Shown here: in pieces, positions 11,219 through 42,981 of the stretch
Position numbering within the stretch: position 1 is the first letter of the stretch
Layout: each line of letters begins with the position of its first letter
Source of the DNA: an uncultured Bacteroidales bacterium
Lineage (GTDB): Bacteria; Bacteroidota; Bacteroidia; Bacteroidales; UBA932
Direction of reading: 5' to 3'
Assembly (NCBI GenBank): GCA_900317925.1
Contig: ONIQ01000009.1
Location: 22,605 to 86,604, forward strand
Length of the DNA: 64,000 nt
Program-made: the position numbers and the translations under genes
Notes under the pieces: generated by a model
What the model saw: the letters and a program-made list of their open reading frames with translations, nothing else
Databases searched by the model: none
What the model was told of the DNA's origin: nothing

Positions 11219-13673
11219 GTGTATAGGAACGTCCTGCCCGGGCGGCAAAGGCGGTTTTCCAGAAGGCTCCGTCACGCGTGGAACGGGAGCGTACACCATT
11301 CACTTTCAATGGTTTGGCAGACAGGACCGTGCAGGTTCCGTCCACTCCGGCGCGAACCGTTGCCGTGGTCAGCGTCCCCTTGTCCCAGTCGATATCTACC
11401 GTGTAGGCTCCCCGGCCGCGCAGGCCTTTGACGGAACCGCAGGGCCAGGCCGCCGGCAGGGCAGGGAGGAGGTGCAGGGCTCCCGTCTGGCTTTGGAGCA
11501 GCATCTCGCTCACCCCCGCAATGCTTCCGAAATTCCCGTCAATCTGGAAAGGCGGATGCGTATCGAACAAGTTGGGCAGGGTGGATTTATGCAGGAGCTC
11601 GCGGTACATCTTGTAGGCATGGTCACCATCCAGCAGGCGGGCCCAGAAGCAGATCTTCCAGGCTTTGCTCCATCCGGTACCGCCATCGCCGCGCAGTTCC
11701 AGGGTCTTGCGGGCTGCCACCGCCAGTTCTGGGGTGGTGACGGGCGACAGCTGCCGTCCGGGATAGAGCCCGTACAGGTGCGATACATGGCGGTGATGCG
11801 GTTCGGTATCCATCCAGTCTTTGTACCACTCCATCAGGTTGCCGCGCGCGCCGATTTGCAGGGGATGCAGGTGGTCGCGGTAGTGCTGCCACCGTTTGCG
11901 CAGGTCGCGATCGGTGTCCAGCACCTGGCTGGCTTCGATGAGATTGTTGAACACGTCCCAACAAATTTCCAGGTCCATGGCGGTGCCGATGGTCACGGCG
12001 CCGCGCCGCCCGTTGTCGTCCAGGAAGGCATTCTCGGGCGATGTGGCCGGGGCGGTGATGTACTCGCCGTCTTTTTCGATGAGCCAGTCCATCAGGAATT
12101 CACCGGCCCCTTTCATGAGCGGGTAGCCGGTTTCCCGCAGCCAGTCTTTGTCTTGTGTAAAGAGGTAATGGTCATAGACATGCTGGCAGACCCAGCCGCC
12201 GCCCATGGCCCAGTTGGCCCAGGAAGGGCTTCCTTTCTTGTTGCCCACAGGATTGGTCCGGGCCCAGATGTCACTGGTATGGTGCACCGTCCAACCGCCC
12301 ATGCCATAGAAATCCCGGACGGTCCCGGCTCCATTTACGGCCCAGTGGCCCACGTAATTCAGGAAGGGTTTCGTGAGTTCGCTCAGGCCCAACGGTTCGG
12401 CGGGCCAGTAATTCATCTGGACGTTGATGTTCGTGTGTAGGTCGCTGCCCCAGGCGGGCCGGCGGTCTTTGTTCCAGATACCCTGGAGGTTGCACGGGAC
12501 TTCGCTATCCTCGCGGGAGGAGGAAATGAGCAGGTAGCGGCCGAACTGGAAATACTGCATTTCCAGGAACGGATCGCCCTTCTCTACATCGTATGCTGCC
12601 ACGCGCTGCGGAACGCTTATCACCGCCTCTCCCGCGGCCGGGCCCGAAGGCACCTCGTCGCAGGGAACTAGGGAATCAGACCCCAGGACCAGCGAAACGC
12701 GGTTGAAAAGGGCCCCGAAATCGGCGGTGTGGGCCGCCAGGAGTTCATCGTAAGATTTCTGCCGTGCGGCATCCAGGAACGATGCAGCCAGCGCCGCCTC
12801 GTCCCGTCCCTGCGCATCCGGACGATGGTCAAACCCGTTGAAACTCGTGGCCGCGCTTACCAGCACCACGGCCTCGGTAGCGCCACTGACGTGGATGCCC
12901 GGCGTGGTGTACAGCTGGCCATCGCACCGCACGCATTGGACGCGGAACTGATAGCGCATGCCTTTTTCTTCCGCCGTTCCTTTTACCCGTCCGCTCACCA
13001 CGAAAGAAGCGTCTCCCAGGCTCTCGATCTTACAGCCGTTCCACGGGGTACTGCCGTCCAGAACGAACTCCAATTTGCCTTTTTCGGAGGCTGTGAGCCG
13101 AAGGACCAGCACCCGGTTGGGATGGGAAACGAATACTTCACGGGTGTAGCGGACACCGTCCCGGGTGAAGGCGACGGTAGCTACGGCACGCGAGAGGTCC
13201 AGGGTCCGCGAATAATCGCTTATCCGGGCGGGCGCGGTGCCGGCCTTTTCCGTGCGTTTGCCGTTATAGGCGGCGTATTGGGATTGGTTCTCCTCTGCGC
13301 CGAAGGTCTGGTGCAGGTGCAGCGAGCCCAGGGGGAGGAAGGCCTCCGCATCCCGTCCCTGCAGGCCTTTGGCCAGTTCGTGCCCCAGGGCCCAGTCTTC
13401 GGCCAGCAAGGCCTTGCGGACATCGGCCAGCAGGGACCGCCCGTCGATGGGATCGGTATCGGCCCCGGTGCCACTCCACAGGGTGGCCTCGTTCAGGCGG
13501 ATGAGCTCGTCGCCGATCCGTCCGTAAACCATGGCTCCCAGATGGCCGTTCCCCAGGGGAAGGGCCTCTTCGAAAACGTTGGCCGGCTGGTTGAAAACCA
13601 AAACCGTCGGGTTTTGGGAAAAGGCGGCCTGGCAGGCGAGGAACGCCCCGGCGCAGAGGAGTATCTTTTTCAT
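11205..13673 (-). CDS. secreted GH95 alpha-L-fucosidase or alpha-L-galactosidase
   Basis: 822 aa with a signal peptide ([20 protein letters not shown]). The N-terminal domain contains [13 protein letters not shown] and LNEATLWSG, typical of GH95. The catalytic region has [12 protein letters not shown] (near residue 415) and QIDGNFG (near 710), corresponding to the conserved Asn pair and Asp of GH95. The family removes alpha-1,2-L-fucose; some Bacteroidetes members act on L-galactose in RG-II. I cannot decide between these. It is the last gene of the minus-strand operon and its ATG overlaps the stop of the GH78-like gene (ATGA). Confidence 0.92.
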
Positions 13674-25994: not shown

Positions 25995-26040
25995 GGGCTG
26001 CCAGCCCTTCCCATCCACCAAAACGCCTTATTTGGTGGAT
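25995..26040 (-). terminator. hairpins downstream of aroK
   Basis: A perfect 10-bp stem with an 8-nt loop (ATCCACCAAA at 26013-26022 with TTTGGTGGAT at 26031-26040) starts 10 nt after aroK. A smaller palindrome, GGGCTGCCAGCCC, lies at 25995-26007. No U-run follows, so it may be a weak or factor-assisted terminator or an mRNA-stabilising end. Confidence 0.45.
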
Positions 26041-26049
26041 GAACGGGGA

Positions 26050-26829
26050 CTAGATGGTAGAAAGGATGCTGCGGGCAACGTCTTCGACGGAGAGGCCATC
26101 TACATCAATAATGTGATGGGCAACGGATTCATAGGTGGCGCTGCGTTGGGCCAGCAGGCTGGAAATGCGTTCGCGCAGGGCTATGTCTGCGTCGGCAGGG
26201 GTAGGGCAAGGTTCGGTGCCGGGGTCCGGCGTCCGGGTCCGGAGCATGGGCCGGCCCGCCGCCTCGTTGCGAAGGCGCTGGACAAGCGTATCAACGGTGG
26301 CGCGAAGGTAGATGCACCAGGTCCGCTCCTGGACCATGTGGGCGCAGTCCGGCGTCATTACCGTTCCTCCGCCCAGCGCTAGCACGGCCGAAATTGCCGG
26401 CGCCGTTCCGCCGGACACACCCCCTTTCCCCGAGCGACATATTCCCTCATTTCCTGGAGTGAGGGGAGAGGGGGTGTGTCCGGCAGTCGAGCGACATATT
26501 CCCTCGTTCCCTGGAGTGAGGGAAGAGGGGGTGTGTCCGGCAGTCGAGCGACATATTCCCTCATTCCCTGGAGTGAGGGAAGAGGGGGTGTGTCCGGGAA
26601 GGGAGTGTCCGGTTAAGGTGTGTCTGGAAAGGGTGGCGGACAGGACGTCGGATTCCAGGGTGCGGAAAGCAGCTTCGCCGTGCCGGGCGAAAAACTCCGG
26701 AATGGTGCAGCCGATGCGCTCCACAATGGCGGCATCCAGGTCTGTAAATGGGCAACCGAGCCGCGCCGAAAGTACTTTCCCGACACTGCTTTTTCCGCAG
26801 CCCATAAAACCTGTAAGGCTGATAATCAT
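26050..26829 (-). CDS. aroK: shikimate kinase with a large in-frame repeat insertion
   Basis: 259 aa; shikimate kinases are usually about 170-180. It phosphorylates shikimate in the aromatic amino acid pathway. The Walker A motif FMGCGKSSVGK (residues 8-18), the FTDLDAAI metal/substrate segment (28-35), FRTLESDVL (55-63) and LALGGGTVM (150-158) are all intact, as is a C-terminal lid/nucleotide region. Between Glu59 and the GGG motif about 75 extra residues are inserted, including three copies of GHTPSSLTPGNEGICRSTA or close variants. The insertion is at a surface loop and keeps the frame. It coincides with a DNA palindrome (26411-26483) and a 57-bp tandem repeat. The gene lies 4 nt after parC. 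Confidence 0.92.
   Translation of the reverse strand: MIISLTGFMGCGKSSVGKVLSARLGCPFTDLDAAIVERIGCTIPEFFARHGEAAFRTLESDVLSATLSRHTLTGHSLPGHTPSSLTPGNEGICRSTAGHTPSSLTPGNEGICRSTAGHTPSPLTPGNEGICRSGKGGVSGGTAPAISAVLALGGGTVMTPDCAHMVQERTWCIYLRATVDTLVQRLRNEAAGRPMLRTRTPDPGTEPCPTPADADIALRERISSLLAQRSATYESVAHHIIDVDGLSVEDVARSILSTI
26411..26483. repeat. in-frame palindromic element, copy 1
   Basis: The left arm at 26411-26431 and the right arm at 26463-26483 are complementary at 20 of 21 positions. They flank a 31-nt core (26432-26462). The core holds a second, overlapping hairpin, CCCTCA with TGAGGG. A copy with the same architecture and a 31-nt core lies at 42155-42226; the two cores agree at 19 of 31 bases and both are bounded by CCCC and GGGGAGAGG. 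The stem covaries: CCCTCA/TGAGGG here, CCCTCG/CGAGGG there. Confidence 0.75.
26432..26602. repeat. three tandem 57-bp repeats inside aroK
   Basis: Units start at 26432, 26489 and 26546 and begin GAGCGACATATTCCCTC. Units 1 and 2 are nearly identical; unit 3 diverges in its last few bases. The period is 19 codons, so the frame is kept. Each unit carries the core plus right arm of the palindrome, so the right half seems to have been amplified after insertion. Confidence 0.9.
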
Positions 26830-26833
26830 TCTG

Positions 26834-29800
26834 TTAGAATAAGGTCAAATCCTCGGCCGGCGGCTCATCGGGATCCTTCTTCACACTCTTCCGCGAGGTG
26901 CGTTTGCGTGCAACCGGTTCCAGCAAGTCCATCTCTCCGATATCCGGAAGATCCAAATCCAATTTTCCTACCGTAATGTTTGTCTCTTCCTCTCCGAGAT
27001 CAATGTCCAGCGGTGTAATTTGTTTCGGTTCGATGGTCTCTGCCGGCTTGGGTTTCGATGCCGGTTTCTTCTTCGCTTTTGGTGCCGGTGCCGGTTTTTC
27101 AACAACTTCGGTAGCAGGTTCCGGGGTTTCTTCCGGTGCCGGTTCAAGTGCCAATGCCGGAGTCGCTTCTGCGACCGGTTCAGGAGCGGGAGCGGGAGTG
27201 GTCTCTTCAACCACTTCCGGAGCCACTTCCGAGGCGATAAATTCCACTTTCTTCACCTCCAGCGAACTGCACTTCTTGCCCTTCGCCGTAATGCCTTTCT
27301 TTCCGATAAAGGATTCTGCATCAATGATTTCCGGCTCTCGGTGGGCACTCTTGCCCTTGAAAGTCACCTTGACCTGCGGCCGTTCATCAGCGCTCACATC
27401 CACCAGGAACGAATTCTTGCCCTCCGCGATAAAGAGGAAGGGCGTATTGTCGCTGGGTGTGAAGGAGAAACGCTTCACATAGAAGGCCTTGGCTCCGGCG
27501 TCCCAGTAAAGCGCCGTAAAGGTCTTCATCTCATCCAGCTTCTCAATAAACAGCAGATCGCCCTGGTAACGGTTCGACAAATCGAACGACGTGGTATAAT
27601 AGGTTCCGTTCTTGAAGACGGCCAGCACCTTGTCTTCGCCCGAGAACTGGCCCAGGTAGATGCCCCGTCCGTCCTCGTCGAGCTTCTGGATGTCCGGATC
27701 GTACCAGATATCTTTTCCGCCGATGGTCGAGACGCCTTTCGCCTTCAGCACAATCTTCTGGATGACGTTCTTGCTCACCAGGTTACCGCGCGAGGTCTTG
27801 CCCTTGATGGCCAGTTCGGAGAAGTCGTACTCGAACGAAAGCTTCTTCAGTTTCGGCTTGGCCCGCAGGTTCACCCGGACCGTCTCGGCCTCGCCGTTGT
27901 GGTTGGCCGTAAACCAGAGGATGGTAGAACCGGGCGCGCCCGTGGTGATATCGTATTCGCGGTCGCGGGTAATGCCCGTCACCGCAAAGCGTTTCGCATA
28001 ATAAATCGAGGTCTTTCCTTCGCGATAAATCACATTGTAGATCGTGCGCGTATCGTTGCGGTTGAACACGCCCACGTACAGCAGGTCCTTCCCAAAGAAA
28101 GCCTTGTCCGTAACTTTCGTAACGCGGTATTTGCCGTCTCGGCCGATCACGATAATTTCCGACAGGTCGGAGCAGTCGCCGATAAAGATGCCGTTGTCGT
28201 CCCGTTTCAGGCCGATGCCCACGAAGCCCTCCTCCATGTTCGCGTAGAGTTTGGCATTGTTGTTCACGACCTTGGTCACGGCGATGGTCTCGAAAGCGGT
28301 AATCTCTGTCTGCCGCGGGTAATCTTTCCCGTATTTCTTCTTCAGGCCCTTGAACCAGTCAATCGTGTACCGGACGATATGGTCGATTTGGTCGCGTACC
28401 TCGGCCATCTGCTCCTCGATAGCCGTAATCTTCTCGTCGATGGCTTTGGTATCGAAGCGCGAAATCTTGCGGACCGGTTTCTCCACCAGTCGGTCGATAT
28501 CCTCCATCACAATCTCCCGGCGCACCTGGTCGCGGTATTCCTGCATCTTGGCAAGGATGGCTTCTTTCTGGTCTTCCCAGGAAGGGAAGTCCTTGCTTTC
28601 CAGCAGTTTATAAACGCCGTACTCGAAGAAGATGCGTTCCAGCGACGTGTAATGCCAATCGTTTTCGAGCTCGCCCAGCCGGATGCGGAGTTCCTGTTCC
28701 AGCAGGTCCTTGGTGTGGTTGGTATCGTAAATCAGGATATCTTTCACCGAGAGGAACTGCGGTTTGTTGTCCACAATCACGCACGCATTCGGGTTGATGG
28801 TGGTCTCGCAGTCCGTAAAGGCATACAGGGCGTCGATGGTCTTGTCCGGTGACACGTCGGCCGGCAGGTGAATCAGGATTTCCACCTTTTCGGTGGTCAT
28901 ATCCTCGATTTTCTTGATCTTGATCTTGCCCTTGTCCTTCGCGCGCAGGATGGATTCAATCAGGCTGTGGGACGTGCTGCCGTAGGGAATCTCGTTGATG
29001 GAGATGGTGTTCTTGTCGATTTTTTCGATTTTCGCGCGAACCTTCACCACGCCGCCGCGGTGGCCGTCCATGTATTTGGAACAGTCGATGGACCCCCCGG
29101 TAGGGAAGTCCGGATAAATCTCGAAATCTTTTCCCTCGAGGATGGATACCGATGCATCCATCAGCTCGTTGAAGTTATGCGGGAGGATCTTCGATGCCAT
29201 ACCCACGGCGATGCCCTCGGTGCCCTGTGCCAGCAGGAGCGGGAATCGGACCGGAAGCTCAATCGGCTCTTTGTTGCGGCCGTCGTACGAGGTCATCCAG
29301 TTGGTGACCTTATCGTCGAATACTACTTCTTTCGCGAATTTGCTCAGGCGGGCCTCGATGTATCGGGGCGCCGCGTTGCTGTCGCCCGTGAGGATGTTAC
29401 CCCAGTTACCCTGGCAGTCAATCAGGTAGCCTTTCTGGCCCAGTTGGACCAGGGCGCCCAGGATGGAGGCGTCGCCGTGCGGGTGATACTGCATGGCCTG
29501 GCCGACGATATTCGCCACCTTGGTGTAGCGGCCATCGTCGATGCGCGACATGGCGTGCAGCACACGGCGCTGGACCGGCTTCAAGCCATCCACGATGTGC
29601 GGCACCGCCCGCTGCAGGATGACGTACGAGGAGTAGTCCAGAAACCATTCCTTGAACATCCCCGACAGCTTGTACTTGCTGCTGTCCGATCCCAGAAGCC
29701 TGTCGTACTTCCCGCTGTCGGAGTTCTCGTCTCCTTCCAGCGGCTGTTCGCCAAGTTCGCTGTCGTCGAACGGCTCGAGGTCCTGATCAATATCACTCAT
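26834..29800 (-). CDS. parC: DNA topoisomerase IV subunit A
   Basis: 988 aa, with the GyrA/ParC breakage-reunion domain at about residues 45-480. The catalytic tyrosine is Tyr147 in AAPRYIEARLS, preceded by the conserved Arg. A coiled-coil region (AIEEQMAEVRDQIDH) and a divergent C-terminal DNA-wrapping domain follow, as in Bacteroidetes ParC. The last 100 or so residues are a low-complexity Ala/Pro/Glu tail followed by a basic stretch (KKKPASKPKPA, RKRTSRKSVKK). It should decatenate chromosomes together with ParE, which is not in this window. It lies between era and aroK and is probably cotranscribed with both. Confidence 0.94.
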   Translation of the reverse strand: MSDIDQDLEPFDDSELGEQPLEGDENSDSGKYDRLLGSDSSKYKLSGMFKEWFLDYSSYVILQRAVPHIVDGLKPVQRRVLHAMSRIDDGRYTKVANIVGQAMQYHPHGDASILGALVQLGQKGYLIDCQGNWGNILTGDSNAAPRYIEARLSKFAKEVVFDDKVTNWMTSYDGRNKEPIELPVRFPLLLAQGTEGIAVGMASKILPHNFNELMDASVSILEGKDFEIYPDFPTGGSIDCSKYMDGHRGGVVKVRAKIEKIDKNTISINEIPYGSTSHSLIESILRAKDKGKIKIKKIEDMTTEKVEILIHLPADVSPDKTIDALYAFTDCETTINPNACVIVDNKPQFLSVKDILIYDTNHTKDLLEQELRIRLGELENDWHYTSLERIFFEYGVYKLLESKDFPSWEDQKEAILAKMQEYRDQVRREIVMEDIDRLVEKPVRKISRFDTKAIDEKITAIEEQMAEVRDQIDHIVRYTIDWFKGLKKKYGKDYPRQTEITAFETIAVTKVVNNNAKLYANMEEGFVGIGLKRDDNGIFIGDCSDLSEIIVIGRDGKYRVTKVTDKAFFGKDLLYVGVFNRNDTRTIYNVIYREGKTSIYYAKRFAVTGITRDREYDITTGAPGSTILWFTANHNGEAETVRVNLRAKPKLKKLSFEYDFSELAIKGKTSRGNLVSKNVIQKIVLKAKGVSTIGGKDIWYDPDIQKLDEDGRGIYLGQFSGEDKVLAVFKNGTYYTTSFDLSNRYQGDLLFIEKLDEMKTFTALYWDAGAKAFYVKRFSFTPSDNTPFLFIAEGKNSFLVDVSADERPQVKVTFKGKSAHREPEIIDAESFIGKKGITAKGKKCSSLEVKKVEFIASEVAPEVVEETTPAPAPEPVAEATPALALEPAPEETPEPATEVVEKPAPAPKAKKKPASKPKPAETIEPKQITPLDIDLGEEETNITVGKLDLDLPDIGEMDLLEPVARKRTSRKSVKKDPDEPPAEDLTLF

Positions 29801-29811
29801 ATCTCACACTG

Positions 29812-30702
29812 TTATTCTTCGTACCCAAACTTGCGGAGTTCCCGTTTGCTTTCGCGCCAGTCGGGATCCACTTTTACAAAGAGGTTCAGGAAAACCTTCT
29901 TCTGGAAGAAGTCTTCCATCTCCAGGCGGGCTTCCGTGCCGGTTTTCTTCAGCGCCGATCCGCCTTTTCCGATCAGGATACCCTTCTGGGAATCCCGCAT
30001 CACATAGATGACCGCGCTGATCTCGTATCGTTCCGCACCCTCCTTGAACGCCTCGACCACCACCTCGCAGGAATACGGAATCTCCTGCGCATAATTCAGC
30101 AGGATCTTCTCCCGGATGATTTCCGATGCGAAGAAGCGCAGGTTCCGGTCGGTGAAGGCATCCTTGTCGAACCACGGCGGGGCAACCGGCAGGCGGGACA
30201 CCACGGCGTCCATGATGCTTTCCAGGTTGAACCGCTCCTGCGCGGATGCCGGAATGATCTCGGCCTTCGGCAGCTGTTCCTTCCACCATGCCATCAGTTC
30301 CATCACCTTCGGCTGGTCGCTGATGTCGATCTTGTTGATAACCAGCACCACCGGGCAGTCCACTTTCTGGAGCTTCGCGATGTATTCGTCATGTTTGTCC
30401 GCCTTTTCGACGGTATCGGTTACATACAGGATGATGTCCGCGTCGCCGATGGCCGTGTCCACGAAGTTCATCATGTTCTTCTGCAGGCGGTAGTTCGGCT
30501 TCAGGATACCCGGCGTGTCGGAATAGACGATCTGGAAATCGTCCGTATTCACGATGCCCATGATGCGGTGACGCGTGGTCTGGGCTTTTGCCGTCACGAT
30601 GGACAGCTTTTCCCCGACCAGTGCGTTCATCAGGGTCGATTTGCCGACATTCGGGTTCCCGATGATGTTGACGAATCCGGCGCGATGCTTATTCTCAGAC
30701 AT
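29812..30702 (-). CDS. era: GTPase Era
   Basis: 296 aa from ATG 30702-30700; a GTG two codons upstream is possible but less likely. It is a membrane-associated GTPase that binds the 3' end of 16S rRNA during 30S assembly. G1 is GNPNVGKST, G3 is DTPG, and G4 is NKID. A C-terminal KH domain contains the signature IGKGGSALKKTGTEAR. The ATG overlaps the end of the pseudouridine synthase gene by 8 nt, so the two genes are translationally close. parC follows 11 nt downstream. Confidence 0.96.
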   Translation of the reverse strand: MSENKHRAGFVNIIGNPNVGKSTLMNALVGEKLSIVTAKAQTTRHRIMGIVNTDDFQIVYSDTPGILKPNYRLQKNMMNFVDTAIGDADIILYVTDTVEKADKHDEYIAKLQKVDCPVVLVINKIDISDQPKVMELMAWWKEQLPKAEIIPASAQERFNLESIMDAVVSRLPVAPPWFDKDAFTDRNLRFFASEIIREKILLNYAQEIPYSCEVVVEAFKEGAERYEISAVIYVMRDSQKGILIGKGGSALKKTGTEARLEMEDFFQKKVFLNLFVKVDPDWRESKRELRKFGYEE

Positions 30703-31816
30703 AGGCACCCATCCTGAGGATGTTGACTTCTCCCTCGGTCAGATAACGCCACTCACCTTTCTGCAGGCCCTTTTTCGTAAGGCCGGCGAAGTAAACGCGA
30801 TCCAGCGCCTTGACATCGTATCCGAGCGATTCGAAAATGCGGCGGACGATGCGGTTCTTTCCGGAATGGATTTCAATGCCGAGTTTGCGGTGGTCGTGCT
30901 CGTCGATGTATTCGAGTTCATCGGCCTTGATCAGGCCGTCTGTCAACTCGATGCCTTCTTTGATTTTGTCGAAATCGGCCTGATCCAGGGGCTTGTCCAC
31001 GATGACTTGGTAAATCTTCTTCTTGTCGTAGGACGGGTGGGTCAGCTTTTCGGCCATCTCCCCGTCGTTGGTAAACATCAGGACGCCCGTGGTGGCCTTG
31101 TCCAGGCGGCCCACCGGGAAGACACGGGTCTTGCAGGCCTTCAACAGGTCCATTACCGTCTTTTCCGCGTGGGGGTCGCTGGCCGTGGTGACAAAGCCCT
31201 TCGGCTTGTTCATCACGATATACACCTTGGCCTCTCCCTTTAGGCGCTCGCCGTTGAAACGGATATCATCGTTGAAAATGTTCACCTTCGTTCCCAGTTC
31301 GGTAACCACTTCGCCATTGACGGTAACCACGCCGGCGAGGATCATGTTATCGGCCTCGCGACGCGAGCAAACACCGGAATTGGCGATAAATTTGTTCAGG
31401 CGAACCACCTCCTTGATACCAGTATCGGCATTGTCGAAATCGGAATAGACGGGTGCTTGGCGGAATTCGGGTTTCTCGAATCTCGGTTTGAAATTCTTTT
31501 TGGGGCGGTTGAATCCGCCGCCCGGACGCGGTTTGTCGCCAAAACTCTTGCGTTCACCGAAATTCTTGTGCTCACCGAAGCTTTTGCGTTCTCCATAGTT
31601 CTTGCGCTCACCTTGCGGCCTCTCGCCGTAGCTCTTGCGCTCTCCGAAACTCTTATGCTCGCCGAAACTTCTGTGTTCGCCGAAGCTTTTGTGCTCACCA
31701 AAACTCTTGTGTTCACCAAAGGTTTTGTGCTCGACGGGTTTGGCGCTAGCGCTCTTGCGCGGCCGGAGTTTCCTTCCTTCGGCAGTATAACCACTGCCCT
31801 TGATTTTTTCTTCCAT
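30695..31816 (-). CDS. RsuA/RluB-type pseudouridine synthase with repetitive basic N-terminus
   Basis: 373 aa. The C-terminal 240 residues are a normal rRNA pseudouridine synthase: an S4 domain (VRLNKFIANSGVCSRREAD) and a catalytic domain with Asp239 in VGRLDKATTGVLMF. The N-terminal 130 residues are a low-complexity tract of KSFGEHKSFGE-type repeats, rich in Lys, Arg, Gly, Ser and Glu, and probably disordered and RNA-binding. Such extensions are known in Bacteroidetes members. It modifies large-subunit rRNA (RluB-like) by inference; the exact uridine cannot be told. Confidence 0.9.
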   Translation of the reverse strand: MEEKIKGSGYTAEGRKLRPRKSASAKPVEHKTFGEHKSFGEHKSFGEHRSFGEHKSFGERKSYGERPQGERKNYGERKSFGEHKNFGERKSFGDKPRPGGGFNRPKKNFKPRFEKPEFRQAPVYSDFDNADTGIKEVVRLNKFIANSGVCSRREADNMILAGVVTVNGEVVTELGTKVNIFNDDIRFNGERLKGEAKVYIVMNKPKGFVTTASDPHAEKTVMDLLKACKTRVFPVGRLDKATTGVLMFTNDGEMAEKLTHPSYDKKKIYQVIVDKPLDQADFDKIKEGIELTDGLIKADELEYIDEHDHRKLGIEIHSGKNRIVRRIFESLGYDVKALDRVYFAGLTKKGLQKGEWRYLTEGEVNILRMGAYV

Positions 31817-31851
31817 ACTTACTTGCTTGGCATCACGCCAAAAATAAAATG

Positions 31852-32628
31852 TTATTTGAGTTTGAAAATATATGTAATTGTTCCTTCTTGAAGGGCGGGG
31901 GCGTCCCCGCTCACATTGAAATGCGCCTCCATGGCGGCCTTCCTGGCTGCATTCCAGAGGTCTTTGTCGGTTACCGTCGTGCCTCCCGCACCCGGGATGG
32001 CTTTCTTAACGGTACCATACTGGTCCACCCAGATGCTCACGACAACAACCCCGTCTTTCTGGGCGGCATACGTCGGCCGGGGCAGGGTGCCCAGGACAGA
32101 GCGGCCTTTCAGGTGGGCGTTGGGCGTACCCTCGGTCTTGCCGACCTTGGTGTTGCCCTTTACCTCTCCCGCCTTGAACTCGTTGGACGGGTCGGTTGCG
32201 GAATGCGGTGCGGTTTTGGTGCTGTCCTTCTTGCTCATGCCCGGGAAAAGGGCGTTGGTGTTGATTTCCGGCTCCTTCGGGGCGGGCACTTCCACGTCCC
32301 CGTGGGCATCCGGCTTGGCCTGGGCGGTCGCATTGCGCTTCGTGGCCGTATAGGGCGATTCCGAGCGCTGGACCAGTTCCAGTTCCTTGGTCCGGTCAAC
32401 TTCTTCGGCCCGGGGCTGGGTGCCCGTACGAACCTGGCGCACCTTGGGCTGCACCTCCTCTTCGAAATCGATGAGGAAGGTCTGCTCCTGCGGCGGCGGC
32501 CAGATGTATTTCAGGCCCGTGAAGGCAAAACAGGACGCGGCCGCCACGTGAATGGCCACCGTCAGGATGACGCCGGTAACCCGGGAAATCCTTTCCTGCT
32601 TCTGTCTGTCACGCAAGTACTGTTCCAT
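31852..32628 (-). CDS. tonB: TonB-like energy transducer
   Basis: 258 aa. A short cytoplasmic N-terminus precedes one membrane helix (VTGVILTVAIHVAAASCFAF). A periplasmic linker rich in Pro, Lys and Glu follows, ending in a TonB C-terminal domain (VVVVSIWVDQYGTVKKAIPG). It would pass the proton-motive force from ExbB/ExbD to outer-membrane receptors such as SusC-like transporters, none of which is encoded here. It is 4 nt downstream of exbD in an exbB-exbD-tonB operon. Confidence 0.88.
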   Translation of the reverse strand: MEQYLRDRQKQERISRVTGVILTVAIHVAAASCFAFTGLKYIWPPPQEQTFLIDFEEEVQPKVRQVRTGTQPRAEEVDRTKELELVQRSESPYTATKRNATAQAKPDAHGDVEVPAPKEPEINTNALFPGMSKKDSTKTAPHSATDPSNEFKAGEVKGNTKVGKTEGTPNAHLKGRSVLGTLPRPTYAAQKDGVVVVSIWVDQYGTVKKAIPGAGGTTVTDKDLWNAARKAAMEAHFNVSGDAPALQEGTITYIFKLK

Positions 32629-32632
32629 CTTT

Positions 32633-33043
32633 CTATTCGGGTTGAGTGGCCAGGATAACCTTGTAGTGGTTCCGTTTGGCGATGTTCATGACCGCGACCA
32701 CTTCCTTGATGGGTACGCTTTCATCGGCGTAAATGGAGAAGGTCGGGTCTTCTTCGGTCTGCAGCAGGCCGATGAGTTCATCTTCCACATCGGTGAAGGC
32801 GATAGGGGCCTCCTGCCCGTTGATGTGGTAGGAATACACATCCTCTCCCCAGTCCTTGATGGATACGCTCACGGTGGCTTTCGCGCTCACCTGGCCCGTG
32901 CTCTTGGGGAGCAGGAGCTTCAAGGCGTTGGGATTGACCAGCGTAGAGGTGATGAGGAAGAAGATGAGCAGCAGGAACACCAGGTCCGTCATGGACGACA
33001 TCCCCAGGTCCGAAAGCACCTTCGTTGTTCTTCTGAATTTCAT
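32633..33043 (-). CDS. exbD: ExbD/TolR biopolymer transport protein
   Basis: 136 aa with one N-terminal membrane helix (MTDLVFLLLIFFLITSTL) containing the conserved protonatable Asp20, then a periplasmic domain. This is the classical ExbD/TolR layout. The stop of exbB is 6 nt upstream. It forms the proton channel with ExbB. Confidence 0.93.
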   Translation of the reverse strand: MKFRRTTKVLSDLGMSSMTDLVFLLLIFFLITSTLVNPNALKLLLPKSTGQVSAKATVSVSIKDWGEDVYSYHINGQEAPIAFTDVEDELIGLLQTEEDPTFSIYADESVPIKEVVAVMNIAKRNHYKVILATQPE

Positions 33044-33049
33044 GGCTGC

Positions 33050-33775
33050 TTATTTTTCAGTCTCGGCGGGTTCGTTGAGGAGGTCCATGAAGTCGATGGT
33101 CGTGCTCTCCATCTTGAAGGCGATGTCCGAAATCTGCGAGGTGAGGTAGTTGTAGCCGAAGTAGGCCAGGATACCCACGATCAGACCGCCGACCGTCGTA
33201 ATCATGGCGGTGTAGATACCGCTGGAAAGCAGGGTGATGTCGATGTTGTTACCGGCATTGGCCATGTTGAAGAAGGCCTGCACCATGCCCAGTACCGTTC
33301 CCAGGAATCCGATCATCGGGGCGCCGCCGGCGATGGTGGCGAGGGTCGGGAGACCCTTCTCCAGGCGGGCTACTTCCACGTTGCCCATGTTTTCCACCGC
33401 GGTCTGGATGTCGGACAGCGGGCGACCGATGCGCTCCAGTCCCTTTTCGACCAGGCGGGCTGCCGGGGAGTCGTATTTTCCGCACAGGGTGATGGCCGAT
33501 TTGACCTTTCCGCTATGGATGTAGTCCCGGATGTCGTTCATGAAGTTCTTGTCGATCTGGGATGCGCGGTTCAGCATCCACCATTTCTTCCCGAAGATGT
33601 AGATGGCAATGATGGACAGTGCCAGCAGGACCAGCATCAGCCAGCCACCTTTGGCGGCCATTTCGATGAGGGAATAGGTCTGCTCGGTCTGAGCGACTTG
33701 GGGAACCGTAGCGGCAGCGGCGGCGGCAGCGTTGGCCGTCGAATCGATACCTGCCTGTAAGAGTTGGAACAGCAT
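33050..33775 (-). CDS. exbB: ExbB/TolQ/MotA-type proton channel subunit
   Basis: 241 aa from ATG 33775-33773. A longer in-frame start at TTG 33814 lies inside the promoter -7 box and is rejected. It has an Ala-rich N-terminus, a first membrane helix (GGWLMLVLLALSIIAIYIF), and the two C-terminal helices of the family (IGFLGTVLGMVQAFF; GLIVGILAYFGYNYL). It is first in the exbB-exbD-tonB operon, with a consensus promoter at 33812-33842. Confidence 0.93.
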   Translation of the reverse strand: MLFQLLQAGIDSTANAAAAAAATVPQVAQTEQTYSLIEMAAKGGWLMLVLLALSIIAIYIFGKKWWMLNRASQIDKNFMNDIRDYIHSGKVKSAITLCGKYDSPAARLVEKGLERIGRPLSDIQTAVENMGNVEVARLEKGLPTLATIAGGAPMIGFLGTVLGMVQAFFNMANAGNNIDITLLSSGIYTAMITTVGGLIVGILAYFGYNYLTSQISDIAFKMESTTIDFMDLLNEPAETEK

Positions 33776-33811
33776 TGTTATGAATGTTTTTAGTTTTTCT
33801 AAATAATCGTG

Positions 33812-33842
33812 CAAATATAAGAATATTTGGCGGTTTTTCCAA
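33812..33842 (-). promoter_or_regulatory. consensus promoter of exbB-exbD-tonB
   Basis: The minus strand reads TTGG (33842-33839), 19 nt, then TATATTTG (33819-33812). It is one of the best Bacteroidetes promoter matches in the window. The -33 element abuts the truA stop codon. Confidence 0.75.
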
Positions 33843-34598
33843 TCAATACAAGAAAAGCGCGTTCCCGGGAACGGATTCGCCTGCGACAGAACGGTTTCCG
33901 CTGTCCAGGACCTCCTGCATCCATTCGGCGGGATGCCTCCCGCGGCCGATTTCGACCAGGGTCCCCACCACCGCGCGCACCATGTTCCGGAGGAAGCGGT
34001 CGGCGCTGATGCGAAACACCAGATAATCTCCCTTCGAGGCCGGATAACCCAGCAGGCGGACGTGATCGGGTTCGTAAGTCTCCCAGCGGGCCTGGGTAAC
34101 CGTGCAGATGGATGTCTTGTTGTCAGAACCGGTTTTTTCGAAGCAGCTGAAATCCCGCGTTCCCAGAATCATCTGCGCCGCCCGGTTCATTTCCTCCACG
34201 TCCAGGGGATAGGGACATCGCCACGAAAAAGCCCCTGCAAACGGGTCTTTGCCCCGATGGAGGAAGTAGGCGTAGGACCGCCGGACCGCATCGAACCGGG
34301 CGTGAAAATCCTCCCTAATGGGAGAAATTTCATGAATCCGGATGGAAGAAGGCAAAATGGCATTTAATTTGTAGCCGAATTGCGGTGCGTCAAGATCGGC
34401 AGAGGTATCGAAATGGGCGACATAGCCCACCGCGTTTACGCCCGTATCGGTTCTTCCGGCTCCCGTGACGGTGATTTCCTCATTCAGGAGGGTTCTCAGG
34501 GCATCCTGCAGACACCCCTGGATGCTGGGTGCGTTGTTCTGCACCTGCCAGCCGCAGAAGGAGGCTCCGTCATAAGAGAGTGTGATTGAGTAGCGCAT
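33843..34598 (-). CDS. truA: tRNA pseudouridine(38-40) synthase TruA
   Basis: 251 aa from ATG 34598-34596. The open frame extends more than 900 nt upstream through moxR on the other strand, but that part has no homology signal and is rejected. TruA modifies the anticodon arm of tRNAs. The catalytic Asp51 lies in GAGRTDTGVNAVG, and RYSITLSYDGASFCGWQ is the typical N-terminus. Length is normal. A TAATTTTG box lies upstream on the same strand, within the start region of moxR. Confidence 0.95.
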   Translation of the reverse strand: MRYSITLSYDGASFCGWQVQNNAPSIQGCLQDALRTLLNEEITVTGAGRTDTGVNAVGYVAHFDTSADLDAPQFGYKLNAILPSSIRIHEISPIREDFHARFDAVRRSYAYFLHRGKDPFAGAFSWRCPYPLDVEEMNRAAQMILGTRDFSCFEKTGSDNKTSICTVTQARWETYEPDHVRLLGYPASKGDYLVFRISADRFLRNMVRAVVGTLVEIGRGRHPAEWMQEVLDSGNRSVAGESVPGNALFLY

Positions 34599-34619
34599 GA
34601 CACATATGGTTTGACAATG

Positions 34620-34650
34620 CAAAATTATCAATAAAAAATGGAGAGCACAA
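34620..34650 (-). promoter_or_regulatory. probable truA promoter
   Basis: The minus strand has TTG (34650-34648), 20 nt, then TAATTTTG (34627-34620), 22 nt before the truA ATG. It overlaps the 5' end of the divergent moxR gene. I see only a poor match (TATGGTTTG, one base too long) for a moxR promoter at about 34604. Confidence 0.5.
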
Positions 34651-35630
34651 GCATCAAAGAGCTCAATGAGCGAATCCAGAAAGAAAGTTCTTTCGTGGAC
34701 CTTCTTTCGATGGAAATGGGCAAGGTCATCGTGGGCCAGAAAGCCCTCGTGGAGAACCTGCTGATAGGCCTTCTGGCCGACGGACACATCCTGTTGGAAG
34801 GCCTTCCCGGCCTGGCCAAAACCTTGGCTATCAATACCCTGTCCCGTTCGGTCGGCGGAAAATTCAGCCGCATCCAGTTCACCCCGGACCTCCTGCCTGC
34901 CGATTTGACCGGTACGCTGATCTATTCCCAGAAGGAAGGCAGCTTCGAAGTCCATAAAGGTCCTGTTTTCGCCAACTTTGTCCTCGCGGATGAAATCAAC
35001 CGAAGCCCGGCCAAGGTCCAGAGCGCCCTGCTGGAAGCCATGCAGGAACGCCAGGTGACCATCGGTGACGAAACGTTCAAGCTTCCGGATCCGTTCCTGG
35101 TGATGGCTACCCAGAACCCCATCGAGCAGGAAGGAACCTATCCGTTGCCCGAGGCGCAGGTGGACCGTTTCATGCTCAAAGTGGTGGTGGACTATCCCAA
35201 AAAAGAAGAAGAGCGCCAGATTGTGCGCATGAACAATACAGGCGAGTTCCCGAAGCCGCAGGCGGTCGTGTCCCCGGAAGACATTGTCCGGGCCCGCCAG
35301 GTGGTGCGCGAAGTCTATATGGACGAGAAGATCGAACGGTACATCGTGGACATCGTCTATGCCACCCGTACCCCGGCCGAATATGGCCTGGGCAAGCTCA
35401 AGGACCTGATTTCCTACGGTGGCTCGCCGCGTGCCAGCATCTCGCTGGCCATGGCCTCCAAGGCTTACGCCTTCATCAAACGCCGCGGTTACGTGATTCC
35501 GGAGGATGTCCGCGCCGTCTGCAACGAGGTGCTCCGTCACCGCATCGGCCTGACCTATGAGGCCGAAGCCGAAAACGTGACGCCCGAGGAAATCATCGCC
35601 GAAACGTTGAACGCCGTTATCGTCCCGTAA
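34638..35630 (+). CDS. MoxR-family AAA+ ATPase
   Basis: 330 aa. Walker A is EGLPGLAKT (about 54-62), Walker B is VLADEINRSP, and sensor 1 is ATQNP. The C-terminal lid matches MoxR proteins. MoxR ATPases act as chaperones for von Willebrand factor A proteins encoded beside them, here BatA and BatB. It opens the Bat operon of seven close or overlapping genes running to 42981; the DUF58 gene begins 2 nt downstream. Confidence 0.94.
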   Translation: MESTSIKELNERIQKESSFVDLLSMEMGKVIVGQKALVENLLIGLLADGHILLEGLPGLAKTLAINTLSRSVGGKFSRIQFTPDLLPADLTGTLIYSQKEGSFEVHKGPVFANFVLADEINRSPAKVQSALLEAMQERQVTIGDETFKLPDPFLVMATQNPIEQEGTYPLPEAQVDRFMLKVVVDYPKKEEERQIVRMNNTGEFPKPQAVVSPEDIVRARQVVREVYMDEKIERYIVDIVYATRTPAEYGLGKLKDLISYGGSPRASISLAMASKAYAFIKRRGYVIPEDVRAVCNEVLRHRIGLTYEAEAENVTPEEIIAETLNAVIVP

Positions 35631-35632
35631 CC

Positions 35633-36523
35633 ATGGCGGAATCCCGTGCGACAGACCTGCTGAAAAAGGTCAGGAAGATTGAAATCCGCACGAGGGCCCT
35701 GTCCCACCAGGTCTTCGCGGGCGAGTACCATTCTGCGTTCAAGGGACGCGGCATGGCCTTCAGCGAAGTGCGTGAGTATCAGTATGGTGACGATGTGCGG
35801 AACATGGACTGGAACGTGACCGCGCGCCTGCGTGCGCCCTATGTAAAGGTGTTCGAGGAAGAGCGCGAGATGACGGTGGTGTTGCTGGTGGACGTGAGCC
35901 GCAGCGGCGCTTTCGGCACCCGGGTCCAGACCAAGCGGGACATGCTGGCGGAAATCGCCGCCGTGCTGTCCTTCTCGGCCATCCTGAACAATGACAAGGT
36001 GGGCGCCCTGCTGTTCAGCGACAAGGTGGAGCTTTTCATCCCGCCCAAGAAGGGACGCAGCCACCTGCTGCACATCATCCGGGAACTGCTTGAATTCCAG
36101 CCGGTTTCCGGCGGAACCGATATCGGGGAAGCCCTTCGATTCCTCACCAACGCCCTCAAGAAGAAATGCACCGCCTTCCTGTTGTCCGACATGCTGGATG
36201 CCGATGCGTCCGGCGCGCTCCGGTACGAGGATGCGCTGAAAGTGGCGGCCGGCCGGCACGATTTGTCGGTCATCAAGGTATGGGATCCGCGCGAAAAGGA
36301 AATCCCGTCCGTCGGGGTGGTCCATGTGGCCGATCCGGAAACGGGGGCCGATGCGTGGGTGGACACCTCCCGCCGTCGGGTGCGGCGTGCCTATTCGGAC
36401 TGGTTTGCCCGGGTGGGGGAGAACGAACGCAAGCTCTTCAACCGCTATCGGATCGACCATGTTGACATCGCGACCGATGAGGATTATGTAAAAGGCCTGA
36501 TGGGCTTTTTCAAGAACCGTTGA
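35633..36523 (+). CDS. DUF58 domain protein of the Bat operon
   Basis: 296 aa cytoplasmic protein. The DUF58 signature is visible as GRGMAFSEVREYQYGDDVRN, followed by DWNVTARLR. A VWA-like region has a partial MIDAS (LLVDVSRSG). DUF58 genes nearly always follow moxR in this locus. The molecular role is unknown; it probably works with MoxR on the membrane VWA proteins. It is separated from the next gene by 1 nt. Confidence 0.9.
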   Translation: MAESRATDLLKKVRKIEIRTRALSHQVFAGEYHSAFKGRGMAFSEVREYQYGDDVRNMDWNVTARLRAPYVKVFEEEREMTVVLLVDVSRSGAFGTRVQTKRDMLAEIAAVLSFSAILNNDKVGALLFSDKVELFIPPKKGRSHLLHIIRELLEFQPVSGGTDIGEALRFLTNALKKKCTAFLLSDMLDADASGALRYEDALKVAAGRHDLSVIKVWDPREKEIPSVGVVHVADPETGADAWVDTSRRRVRRAYSDWFARVGENERKLFNRYRIDHVDIATDEDYVKGLMGFFKNR

Positions 36524-36524
36524 T

Positions 36525-37484: not shown

Positions 37485-37487
37485 CCT

Positions 37488-39478: not shown

Positions 39479-39479
39479 T

Positions 39480-40223: not shown

Positions 40224-40224
40224 T

Positions 40225-42981
40225 ATGAAGCAATGGATAACAACGATGGCCCTGGCGCTTGTGTGCGCCCTGGCATCGGCACAGACCGTTCGGGTAAAAG
40301 CCCCGGCGGTGGTGGCCGCGGACGAGCAGTTCACGGTCTCCTTCACCATAGACGGAGAAAAGGCTCCAAAGGAGTTTTCCTGGAGTCCCGGCGATGACTT
40401 CCAACTGGTCTGGGGACCGCAGAAGGGAACATCGTCCAGCATTCAGATTATCAACGGAAAGACCACCCGGTCGTCCCAGACTACTTATACCTACGTGCTG
40501 CTGCCGCGCGCCACGGGCCGGTTCACCCTGGCCCCCGCCGTGGCGAATTTCGGGAAGGACAAAGAGGTGGCCTCGCCGAGCGTGACCATCGAGGTGGTCT
40601 CTAACGGCGCCGCTTCCCAGGCGGGTCAGTCATCTTCGGCCGCGGCCGGAAGTGCTGCCGGCGCATCTCAGGCTGCCGCAACGGGTTCCATCCCCGACAA
40701 GGACATCTTCCTCCGTTTCGCCTTAAGCAAGACGGATGTGGTGCTGGGCGAGCCGATCACCGCTACGCTGAAACTGTATCAGCGGGTGAATATCGCCGGC
40801 TTCGAGAATGTGAAACTACCCACCTTCAACGGCTTCTGGAGCCAGGAAGTGCAGGCGCCTACCAACATCGAGTTCCACCGCGAGAGCGTGGACGACAAGA
40901 TTTACAACGCGGCCCTCATCCGCAGTTACGTAATTATCCCGCAACAGACAGGCACGCTCGTCATCGAACCGGCCGAAATGGTCTGCCTGGTGAATGTCCG
41001 CCGCGAACTGCGTTCCTCCAACCCGCTGGATATCTTCTTCCAGGACGACTACCAGACCCTCCGCAAACGCGTCACGTCCACGTCGTACAAGGTGCGGGTG
41101 TCGGGCCTTCCCGGCGGAGCGCCGGCCGGTTTCGGCGGCGGCGTGGGGAATTTCACCCTCAGCGCCCGCCTGAGCAAGGATTCGCTCAAGGCCCACGACG
41201 CAGCTTCGCTGCTGGTGACGGTGTCCGGACGCGGCAACGTGTCCCTGCTGGAGGCGCCCAAGATTGCTTTCCCGCCCGATTTCGAGGTGTACGACACCAA
41301 GGTGACGGAGAATGTGACCGCCGGCGGTACGCAGGGCAGCAAAACCTTTGAATATCCCTTCATCCCGCGCAGCCACGGCGACTTTACCCTGGGCCCCGTA
41401 ACCTATAGTTATTACGATACGGGTACGCGCTCGTACCAGACCCTGCAGTCGCAGCCGCTGGAGCTGTCCGTCGCCCGCGGAGAGGGTGGCGAGTCGGTCC
41501 AGACCGTCTCTACCGCTCCTACCGCCAGCCTCCGCAAGGGGGTGAAGGACCTGGGTACGGACATCCGCTTTGTCGCCACCCGTCAGCCCCGTCTGGTGGA
41601 GGAAGGCCATTTCTTCCTGGGCTCCGGCTGGTTCTGGACCCTTTTCCTGCTGCTGGCCGCCGCTACCGCCGGGTCCTATTTCGCCGTCCGCGGGTATGCC
41701 GCCCGTCGGGCCGACGTGGTGGGCGAGAAGAACCGCCGCGCCACCAAGATGGCCCGCGCCCGGCTCAAACAGGCCGGGGAATTCCTGTCGAAGAATCTCT
41801 ACACGGCCTTCTACGAGGAACTTCACAAGGCCCTCCTGGGCTTCATTTCCGACAAGTTGAACATGGATCAGGCAGACCTGAACAAAGACAACATCGCACA
41901 GGCCCTGCTGGCCGGCGGTGTTCCGCAGGACCAGACCGATGCGTTCACGGGACTGCTGGATGCCTGCGAATTCGCACGCTATGCGCCGGATGCCGGTCAT
42001 GAAGCGATGGATGCGCATTACCAGGAGGCGCTCAAGGTCATATCTTCCATCGATGCCAAAATGAAACACAAATCCGTCACCCCTTCCCGCACGCTCTCCG
42101 TCCTCGTATTCCTCCTCTCCGGTACGTTGGCTTTCTCCATTTCCACTAGGGCGGCAGAGGCAGCACCTCTCCCCGAGGAGCATAATCCCTCGTACACTGC
42201 GACGAGGGGAGAGGCCGCTGCCTCTGACAGGCAGTTGGCAGAGGTCGCTGCCTCTGACAGGCAGTTGGGAGAGGCGACAGTCTCTGACAAGCAATTGTGG
42301 GAAGAGGCAACTGCGGCATATCAGGAGGGGCGATGGAGCGATGCCATAGCCGCCTACGAGGCGATCCTGGCAACAGGCCGGACCGCTCCGGAGTTGCAGT
42401 ACAACCTGGGCAATGCCTGGTTCAAATCCGGCGAACCGGCCCGGGCCATCCTTTGTTACGAACGCGCCCTGAAACTGGACCCGTCCTACGACGACGCCCG
42501 CTACAACCTGGAATTCGCCCGCGAGCAGACCCAGGATCGCATCGATGTGGTGCCGGAGTTCATCATCGAACGCTGGGGCCGCAGCGCCTGCTACCTGCTG
42601 GATTCCGACACGTGGACAGTCCTGTTCTTCGTGTTCGCGGCTGTGTTTGCCGTATTGCTGCTGGCCTTCCTGCTGTCGGCCCGGACATCCTGGAAACGGG
42701 TGGGCTTTTACGGCGGCATCGTGGTGCTGCTTCTGGCCCTGCTGTGCCTGGACTTCGCCCACTGGCAGCTGGCCGACTACCGAAAGGCCGACAGCGCCAT
42801 CGTGATGCGTCCGGTGTGCTCGGCCAAGAGTTCGCCGTCGGAAGCTTCGGCCAAAGACCTCTTTGTCCTGCACGAGGGCACCAAGGTGAAGATCCTGGAC
42901 GAGGTGGGTGGCTGGAAGAACATCGAGCTCTCCGACGGCCGCACCGGCTGGGTCCCCGCTTCCGACATCGAAGTCATCTAA
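40225..42981 (+). CDS. BatD-BatE fusion protein
   Basis: 918 aa. Residues 1-612 are BatD: signal peptide (MKQWITTMALALVCALASA), periplasmic beta domains, a membrane helix near 475 (FWTLFLLLAAATAGSYFAV) and a cytoplasmic tail. Met613 starts what looks like a complete BatE, with its own signal-like helix (LSVLVFLLSGTLAFSI), TPRs (LQYNLGNAWFKSGEPARAIL), two membrane helices and a C-terminal SH3-like domain (GWVPASDIEVI). These are normally two genes. At the junction GCCAAAATGAAA, removing one A gives a TGA that overlaps the BatE ATG, so the fusion rests on one base in a 4-A run. Residues 645-690 hold a palindromic-element insertion and 10-residue repeats. Confidence 0.88.
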   Translation: MKQWITTMALALVCALASAQTVRVKAPAVVAADEQFTVSFTIDGEKAPKEFSWSPGDDFQLVWGPQKGTSSSIQIINGKTTRSSQTTYTYVLLPRATGRFTLAPAVANFGKDKEVASPSVTIEVVSNGAASQAGQSSSAAAGSAAGASQAAATGSIPDKDIFLRFALSKTDVVLGEPITATLKLYQRVNIAGFENVKLPTFNGFWSQEVQAPTNIEFHRESVDDKIYNAALIRSYVIIPQQTGTLVIEPAEMVCLVNVRRELRSSNPLDIFFQDDYQTLRKRVTSTSYKVRVSGLPGGAPAGFGGGVGNFTLSARLSKDSLKAHDAASLLVTVSGRGNVSLLEAPKIAFPPDFEVYDTKVTENVTAGGTQGSKTFEYPFIPRSHGDFTLGPVTYSYYDTGTRSYQTLQSQPLELSVARGEGGESVQTVSTAPTASLRKGVKDLGTDIRFVATRQPRLVEEGHFFLGSGWFWTLFLLLAAATAGSYFAVRGYAARRADVVGEKNRRATKMARARLKQAGEFLSKNLYTAFYEELHKALLGFISDKLNMDQADLNKDNIAQALLAGGVPQDQTDAFTGLLDACEFARYAPDAGHEAMDAHYQEALKVISSIDAKMKHKSVTPSRTLSVLVFLLSGTLAFSISTRAAEAAPLPEEHNPSYTATRGEAAASDRQLAEVAASDRQLGEATVSDKQLWEEATAAYQEGRWSDAIAAYEAILATGRTAPELQYNLGNAWFKSGEPARAILCYERALKLDPSYDDARYNLEFAREQTQDRIDVVPEFIIERWGRSACYLLDSDTWTVLFFVFAAVFAVLLLAFLLSARTSWKRVGFYGGIVVLLLALLCLDFAHWQLADYRKADSAIVMRPVCSAKSSPSEASAKDLFVLHEGTKVKILDEVGGWKNIELSDGRTGWVPASDIEVI
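42155..42226. repeat. in-frame palindromic element, copy 2
   Basis: The left arm at 42155-42174 and right arm at 42206-42226 pair at 19 positions with a small bulge. They flank a 31-nt core (42175-42205) related to the core at 26432-26462. The inner hairpin is CCCTCG with CGAGGG. The arms share only CTCCCC/GGGGAGAGG with copy 1; the outer arm sequence differs, yet pairs within each copy. Here the element is read in the orientation opposite to that in aroK. It lies just after the BatE signal helix. Confidence 0.72.
42208..42300. repeat. three tandem 30-bp repeats after the batE palindrome
   Basis: The repeats encode AAASDRQLAE, VAASDRQLGE and ATVSDKQLWE. The period is exactly 10 codons. The first unit overlaps the right arm of the palindrome, as the 57-bp repeats do in aroK. 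The third unit is the most diverged and leads into the TPR domain. Confidence 0.8.

Follow-up and report, generated by a model that had tools for sequence, protein, structure and literature searches.

A dispersed family of in-frame palindromic elements with conserved cores and copy-specific arms in uncultured Bacteroidales

Short palindromic elements were found in frame in unrelated genes of uncultured Bacteroidales. Well over 150 copies were located in many species, and the family is assigned to one uncultured genus, perhaps Cryptobacteroides. The insert was mostly about 55-95 bp long. It consisted of a core, mostly 22-38 nt long and of the type 5'-GAGCAT...GCGA-3' with several sub-types that differed between lineages, and of two arms of about 10-30 nt, which were inverted copies of each other and specific to each copy. 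The core was found in both orientations at orthologous sites. Judged from sequence comparisons, this is probably a family resembling the Rickettsia palindromic elements (RPEs): the core would be the part passed on, and template switching during replication would make the arms match and turn the core round. No description of the family was found in the literature searched (open-licence PMC papers).

Palindromic elements in the window

The window was a stretch of 64,000 nucleotides from one contig of the genome termed G000 here. Its elements were scored with the covariance model R2, built from 55 copies. The features were:

26050..26829, minus strand: aroK (shikimate kinase), 259 amino acids, with inserts in frame; Pfam SKI, 1.2e-35, in two stretches
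26410..26484, plus strand: palindromic element in aroK, arms 26410-26431 and 26463-26484, core 26432-26462
26431..26601, plus strand: three tandem 57-bp units in aroK, each core plus right arm (26431-26487, 26488-26544, 26545-26601)
40225..42981, plus strand: open frame of 918 amino acids with batD-like and batE-like (TPR, SH3) parts, hosting the second element
42155..42226, plus strand: palindromic element in batE, core at about 42175-42205, facing the opposite way to the aroK element relative to the host gene
42207..42296, plus strand: 30-bp tandem units starting in the right arm of the batE element
12633..12697, minus strand: possible decayed copy, weak (R2 19.8 bits, E 0.051)

The arms of the aroK element were 22 nt long and 95% complementary, with 31 nt between them. 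Those of the batE element were broken by small bulges. Both elements matched R2, with 66.3 bits (E 3.5e-12) for aroK and 65.6 bits (E 4.9e-12) for batE, each copy being a member of the model's own training set. The aroK tandem gave core-only matches with E 0.0044 and 0.0095. The E value at 12633-12697 did not improve on the values that the two known copies gave on their reverse strands (0.011 and 0.044); the corresponding place in the sister species held a full element (L101 3048-3121). Other tandem repeats in the window were short-period units of 6, 12 and 18 bp (CAGGAT/CAGGACCAGGATCAGAAT type) at 39924-40064 and 18-bp units at 31542-31732.

Folded as single-stranded DNA and compared with shuffles, the aroK element had z scores of -6.9 (plus strand) and -7.1 (minus strand). 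The batE element had -4.7 on the plus strand and -3.0 on the minus strand, where 1 of 200 shuffles was equally good. A core pattern matched four times in the window versus a mean of 0.00 in 100 shuffles. The aroK element was the sole perfect inverted repeat with arms of at least 13 nt and a loop of at most 80 nt within the 64 kb, so the region is not generally palindrome-prone at those limits. The same criterion returned one repeat in the first of ten Markov controls and none in the other nine.

An earlier description of this DNA, made from its letters and open reading frames (the sequence-only reading), had placed both palindromes correctly to within 1-2 bases. Its count of 19 matching positions between the two 31-nt cores was reproduced manually, and the opposite orientation of the element relative to the two genes was correct. 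The covariation of the inner stem that it described held for the aroK and batE copies and was not kept over ten aligned copies. The 57-bp tandem in aroK, the 30-bp tandem in batE and the possible decayed copy at 12633-12697 were absent from it.

Distribution of the family

A loose core pattern was found in 20 of 200 genomes of the genus. G000 had ten matches and its sister species, G063, had three; the one or two matches in each of 18 others were taken as chance, not all being inspected, and a reversed control pattern matched seven genomes. A covariance model of eight copies (R1), one of which came from G063 and was an ortholog of another, had an 18-pair stem. At E <= 1 it returned 38 matches in G000 and 39 in G063. 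After 4 and 5 reverse-strand duplicates were dropped, 68 distinct places remained, 34 in each genome, a few of them weak with arms of only 5-6 bp.

At E <= 0.01, R2 had matches in 55 of 400 genus genomes; up to 12 candidates per genome were scored, so the copy numbers from this search are lower bounds. One locus was viewed in 28 of the 55 genomes. By eye, 24 of these carried a GAGCAT-like loop, exact or one base off, and four (in G023, G048, G194 and G200) had a short loop and may be unrelated. Ten genomes picked for having hits contained 1-26 matches each when more candidates were scored. Across a sample of the phylum, R2 matched 1 of 296 genomes, which was G000 itself, and with the same filters 0 of the 295 others. 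A sample of the family gave 4 of 249, namely G000, G089 and two genomes of another genus. The latter had one weak match each with a similar GAGCATTTTT...GCGAGCGAG loop. At these loci (L302 and L303), the loop read GAGCGAGCATTTTT...GCGAGCGAG and the arms GGTATCCG/CGGATACC; they are perhaps a sister sub-family.

Core sub-type b was present in at least 119 stretches of named genomes. All 80 titles listed were Bacteroidales or Bacteroidia, and the animals mentioned in them were water deer, roe deer, red deer, reindeer, goat and water buffalo. Viral contigs gave 0 exact matches to one b pattern and one a pattern. From the two window copies it had been suggested that this lineage has a dispersed family of in-frame palindromes. 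Strong support for this comes from the copies found with R1, the R2 matches in 55 of 400 genomes, the b-core stretches and an empty aroK ortholog described below. The sequence-only reading had made this suggestion depend on further copies, and the covariance-model scans found such copies in the genome and its relatives.

Genomes tended toward their own core type. In G000 and G063, cores were mainly gaggagcatattccctcgtttcctgcgacga-like, with one element of G000 (L071) having a b-type core. Core ggagcattttcccgtacagggtcgcgaagcgacgcgga was seen in five of six elements viewed in G140 and in four of six in G045, one of the latter being a variant. G355, G132 and G076 had a gagggagcatcggccttcttttcagcgaccga-like core, and further types occurred elsewhere. 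L084 of G000 and L112 of G063 shared an element with a 72-nt loop. In G045, which also has 38-nt cores, L336 and L339 had minimal 22-nt loops (gatgagcatttttctgcgaaga type) between perfect arms of 16-17 bp.

Host genes and reading frame

Hosts in G000 were identified via Pfam domains, the gene names being readings of these domains, and were mostly housekeeping genes. They comprised shikimate kinase, BatD/TPR, RsmH, a glycosyltransferase, a RidA-type protein, HisD with an aminotransferase, peptidase U32, MurG with MurC, a PurL-type protein, RsmF, a PP-loop protein (TilS-type), a further aminotransferase, LptF/LptG with a formyltransferase, CysS, a radical SAM protein, a FolP-type protein, DnaX, a THUMP-like protein, a GH3 enzyme, alpha-2-macroglobulin and a thioredoxin-fold protein. 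Pfam returned nothing for the open frames of L072, L081 and L084. At L074, an HtrA-type frame, the element apparently lay upstream of the true start, and the element of L075 looked intergenic.

Length differences between orthologous intervals, counted in both directions and thus not independent, were multiples of three in 115 of 121 non-zero cases when a b core was found in both intervals, and in 76 of 83 when none was found in the partner. The encoded peptides varied with orientation and frame; between G000 and G063, sense and antisense readings and different frames occurred. The sequence-only reading had likewise held that the peptides differ. Because of this variation, no single peptide is kept.

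Two further properties were considered and set aside. Elements were located inside open frames in 62 of 62 and 78 of 79 cases, but random places reached 96.5% and 93.9%, so this location is uninformative. Openness in all six frames was observed for 115 of 118 b cores versus 18% of random 38-mers. As the b copies share one core, this amounts to one observation rather than a selected property, and a cores were not special.

In G000, murG and murC formed one open frame of 887 amino acids (L065 1595-4255, minus strand, G000:C26), with a linker of two adjacent palindromic elements. A murG-murC frame of at least 800 amino acids was present in nine of 59 genomes with a match (61 searched), G000 included. 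One of these nine had a stop inside the match, and the remaining genomes had shorter frames. hisD and a hisC-type aminotransferase gene formed one frame of 819 amino acids (L069 1763-4219, plus strand, G000:C44), with a palindromic element directly 3' of the HisD domain. The elements may take part in joining neighbouring genes such as these.

Conservation of cores and arms

In an alignment of 55 copies, which had been fitted to the covariance model and so favours pairing, 95.3% of 923 arm cells were standard pairs. All 18 pairs showed double changes (403 cells versus 113 in shuffles). Pairing fell to 43.6-45.5% when the partner was slid by one column, and 42 G-U cells were counted manually. 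A MAFFT alignment of eight copies gave 96.5% standard pairs and double changes in 15 of 18 pairs.

For sub-family b, 83 distinct copies were listed from 80 of its loci. Arms were good enough to be profiled in 67. The comparison took the 59 of these whose arms reached 18 nt and whose core measured 38 nt, leaving out 24. Mean pairwise identity among the 59 was 95.2% for the core and 54.2% for the arm. Their arm pairs were Watson-Crick in 1030 of 1062 cases, G-T in 18 and other in 14. The rarity of G-T pairs suggests copying at the DNA level, not selection on RNA. The statement of the sequence-only reading that arms differ among copies yet stay complementary within each was thus borne out, with near-perfect pairing. 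The b arms followed a degenerate purine-then-pyrimidine consensus, with inner CCCYTTYC and outer GGRRGGRA, and part of sub-family a had a common inner CCTCCGG/CCGGAGG.

Inversion and arm change at orthologous sites

The evolutionary evidence consists of comparisons between species in draft genomes. Among 102 orthologous pairs of b type, the core had the same orientation in 60 and was inverted in 42. The pairs are not independent of one another, and neighbouring elements may have been joined in some. In all, they represented 28 sites, and inversion occurred at 16 of them. When the closest pair per site was taken (24 usable sites), the core was inverted at ten. The arms were at least 60% alike at 15 of the 24 sites, six of which were inverted. 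At these 15 sites, 27 changes were joint and compensated, 14 affected a single arm and 2 were double changes of another kind; the core differed at 9 of 570 positions. At the other nine sites, with arms less than 60% alike, arms could have been replaced or elements could have been inserted independently at hot spots.

Core differences, counted by flank identity for pairs with arms scored in both, were 0/456 at 90% or more, 3/494 at 85-90%, 22/760 at 80-85% and 50/1102 at 75-80%. The core was thus more conserved than the surrounding DNA, which suggests selection or re-insertion.

In the comparison of G000 with G063, 32 of the 34 places in G000 were used, two with poor arms being dropped. The automatic count was 16 same, 8 inverted, 1 absent and 7 without anchor, with some neighbours mispaired. 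After the arms were read, 12 sites were accepted as having the same orientation, and at two further same-orientation sites the arms had been replaced. At three sites, in the rsmH, rsmF and alpha-2-macroglobulin genes, the core was inverted and its arms were the same or clearly related. Seven other automatic pairings joined different elements.

Filled and empty sites

An alignment of AroK orthologues with and without the insert had been proposed in the sequence-only reading, and an empty ortholog was found in G063. This comparison covers the aroK site, the G063 contig ending before batE. The aroK gene of G063 had no inserts. The flanks of the G000 insert region stood 33 bp apart there, and the G063 protein ran from LSDVLAASLAGQPS directly to AVLALGGG. 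The rsmF gene of G000 had a second element that was absent from G063. Its outer right arm, CCTGCCGGGGC, resembled CCTGCCGGTGC at the G063 site lacking this copy. For the pair L251/L213, the whole element with both arms was extra, amounting to 86 bp, which is not a multiple of three. Filled and empty sites at aroK, rsmF and L251/L213 show that elements come or go between species. The differences in the pairs L070/L090 and L081/L103 could be losses as well as gains.

Evidence for host-derived arms at empty sites conflicted, rsmF standing against aroK, where the empty site matched the arm only weakly, and L251/L213. No direct target-site duplication was seen in the few, highly diverged empty/filled pairs.

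Candidate mobilising proteins

RAYT-like (HUH, Y1-type) proteins of about 300 amino acids were common in the genus. At E <= 1e-5, a match was present in 24 of 29 genomes with elements versus 74 of 171 (p 8.7e-5); G000 itself had none at this threshold. A more sensitive profile matched in 11 of 12 chosen genomes, including G016, in which no element had been reported, and gave up to 13 matches per genome among the 12. The five in G000 were on C21, C22, C46 (11771-12400), C66 and C19, one of them on the window's contig and outside the window. None of 19 Y1-type loci had a recognised element beside the RAYT gene in a search with literal GGAGCAT and reading by eye, which would miss variant cores. 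A RAYT/Y1 transposase was rejected as a proven mobiliser, as the correlation at the strict threshold weakened with the sensitive profile and no element stood beside the 19 loci. The RAYT-like proteins are candidates only.

Origin of cores and arms

The core would be the inherited unit. It seems to have reached dozens of sites, most of them within housekeeping genes, and the copies that persist would stay in frame whichever way they face. A single strand may fold into a hairpin, either during insertion or later, and DNA polymerase may switch template between the arms and so copy one arm onto the other. Such switching would keep the arms complementary while their sequence changes, would flip the core and may seed tandem copies. 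Part of a study of Saccharomyces describes template switching at inverted repeats with arm homogenisation and spacer inversion, in coding genes too (PMC8604942). We infer template switching as the cause, together with mobility of the core and a mobilising enzyme. Template switching explains why the two arms change jointly and why the core flips, and plausibly how the tandems arose. It does not account for the core reaching new sites, nor by itself for the degenerate arm consensus of sub-family b, and the single-arm changes, at 14 versus 27 joint, are not rare. The yeast inversions described also concern spacers of 2-5 bp, not of 31-38. Neither a mobiliser nor a donor molecule was found, and the few empty/filled pairs showed no target-site duplication.

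An ordinary coding palindrome or MITE would transpose whole, arms included, and its arms would then drift with compensatory changes. The b arm consensus, the inner motif shared by part of sub-family a and the complete 86-bp element at L251/L213 fit this, but within the same copies identity is 95% for cores and 54% for arms, and joint arm changes outnumber single-arm changes. Since the arms are nearly unchanged at many orthologous sites, slow drift does not explain the arm differences between paralogous copies, and we regard such an origin as unlikely. An inverted duplication of the target is slightly less likely. Here an enzyme or hairpin-primed synthesis would insert the core and copy 10-25 nt of neighbouring host DNA in inverted form, one arm being host sequence and the other the new copy. 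Copy-specific arms beside near-identical cores would follow, and the resemblance of the outer rsmF arm to the G063 site lacking this copy agrees with it. The b arm consensus, the empty ortholog of L251/L213 without either arm and the weak match at the aroK empty site speak against it.

The inversions in the b-type pairs and sites, some of which may join neighbours, and the strong conservation of the core also invite the idea of a switch, with a site-specific recombinase flipping the core to alter the encoded peptide. This is very unlikely, as the flanking repeats, the expected recognition sites, are not conserved and the hosts in G000 are mostly housekeeping genes; the recombinase search covered the Y1 type only. 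Selection on an RNA structure, be it a terminator, a regulatory hairpin or a translational bypass, is highly improbable despite the stable hairpins, which were folded as DNA. G-U pairs are rare where RNA selection would permit them, window positions 26000-42600 had no Rfam match at the gathering score, the frame is mostly preserved and both orientations occur within genes. The genomes are drafts, and at L129 (G048:C42) a core-like loop lies within a suspicious perfect inverted repeat whose arms are each at least 60 nt long; this repeat may be an assembly fold-back. For the family, however, an assembly or fold-back amplification artefact has a practically negligible probability, given conserved cores, mostly in frame, at orthologous sites of different species in separately assembled genomes.

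Beyond the RPE-like family with template switching favoured here, a bolder proposal is tentative and on balance unlikely. It would make these a new class of mobile element, with inheritance confined to the hairpin loop. When it arrives or afterwards, the core would turn the host DNA around it into a fresh, exact inverted repeat, which it would keep re-copying while flipping. If inheritance were of the loop only, dozens of everyday proteins would carry a continually rewritten in-frame segment. The family may provide a natural system for measuring hairpin template switching and the spread of a core without conserved ends, and a chance to gauge the cost to an enzyme of insertions of 20 or more residues. 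The lineage concerned consists of uncultured gut and rumen bacteria with dozens of hairpin inserts in everyday genes.

Comparison with known systems

To our knowledge, Rickettsia is the main bacterial group whose genes are known to carry palindromes in frame. A passage of a review suggests the same (PMC10969869). The present family would add a second lineage, spanning many species, where the loop persists and the arms are rewritten. As described in that part of the review, RPEs are short in-frame palindromes in unrelated metabolic genes, with many copies in several families, about 150 bp in length and encoding a conserved peptide (PMC10969869). The Rickettsia parallel drawn in the sequence-only reading holds for behaviour, a palindromic insert lying in frame in unrelated genes, and fails for membership. 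Whereas RPEs are conserved in sequence across copies, arms included, arms here were 54% and cores 95% alike. In place of the one conserved peptide in the passage on RPEs (PMC10969869), both orientations and more than one frame occur here, and the core inverts.

By the features tested, the family is not a MITE or REP family. Family-wide terminal inverted repeats, as in MITEs, were not observed, the degenerate arm consensus being confined to sub-family b. REP elements, which are associated with RAYT (Y1) transposases, are short extragenic palindromes. The present elements share the short palindromes and the RAYT-like proteins in the genome, but they are intragenic. In intragenic invertons, inverted repeats flank a segment that is found in both orientations. 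A segment in both orientations between inverted repeats was also observed here between species, but the segment is very small, the repeats are not conserved between copies and a recombinase is hypothetical.

Template switching at RNA hairpins reportedly leaves the same signatures of arm homogenisation and spacer inversion. In yeast, as far as the relevant part of the study describes it, template switching is a general mutational process at scattered repeats with inverted spacers of 2-5 bp (PMC8604942), whereas here it would act on a dispersed family with a shared core of mostly 22-38 nt. PARCELs, in the portion of their description considered, are likewise palindromic DNA inside coding sequence but differ as tandem domains of 25 residues (PMC2996958). 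The palindromes of nematomorph mitochondria also lie in coding sequence; there, according to part of the report, both arms encode conserved protein regions (PMC6649704).
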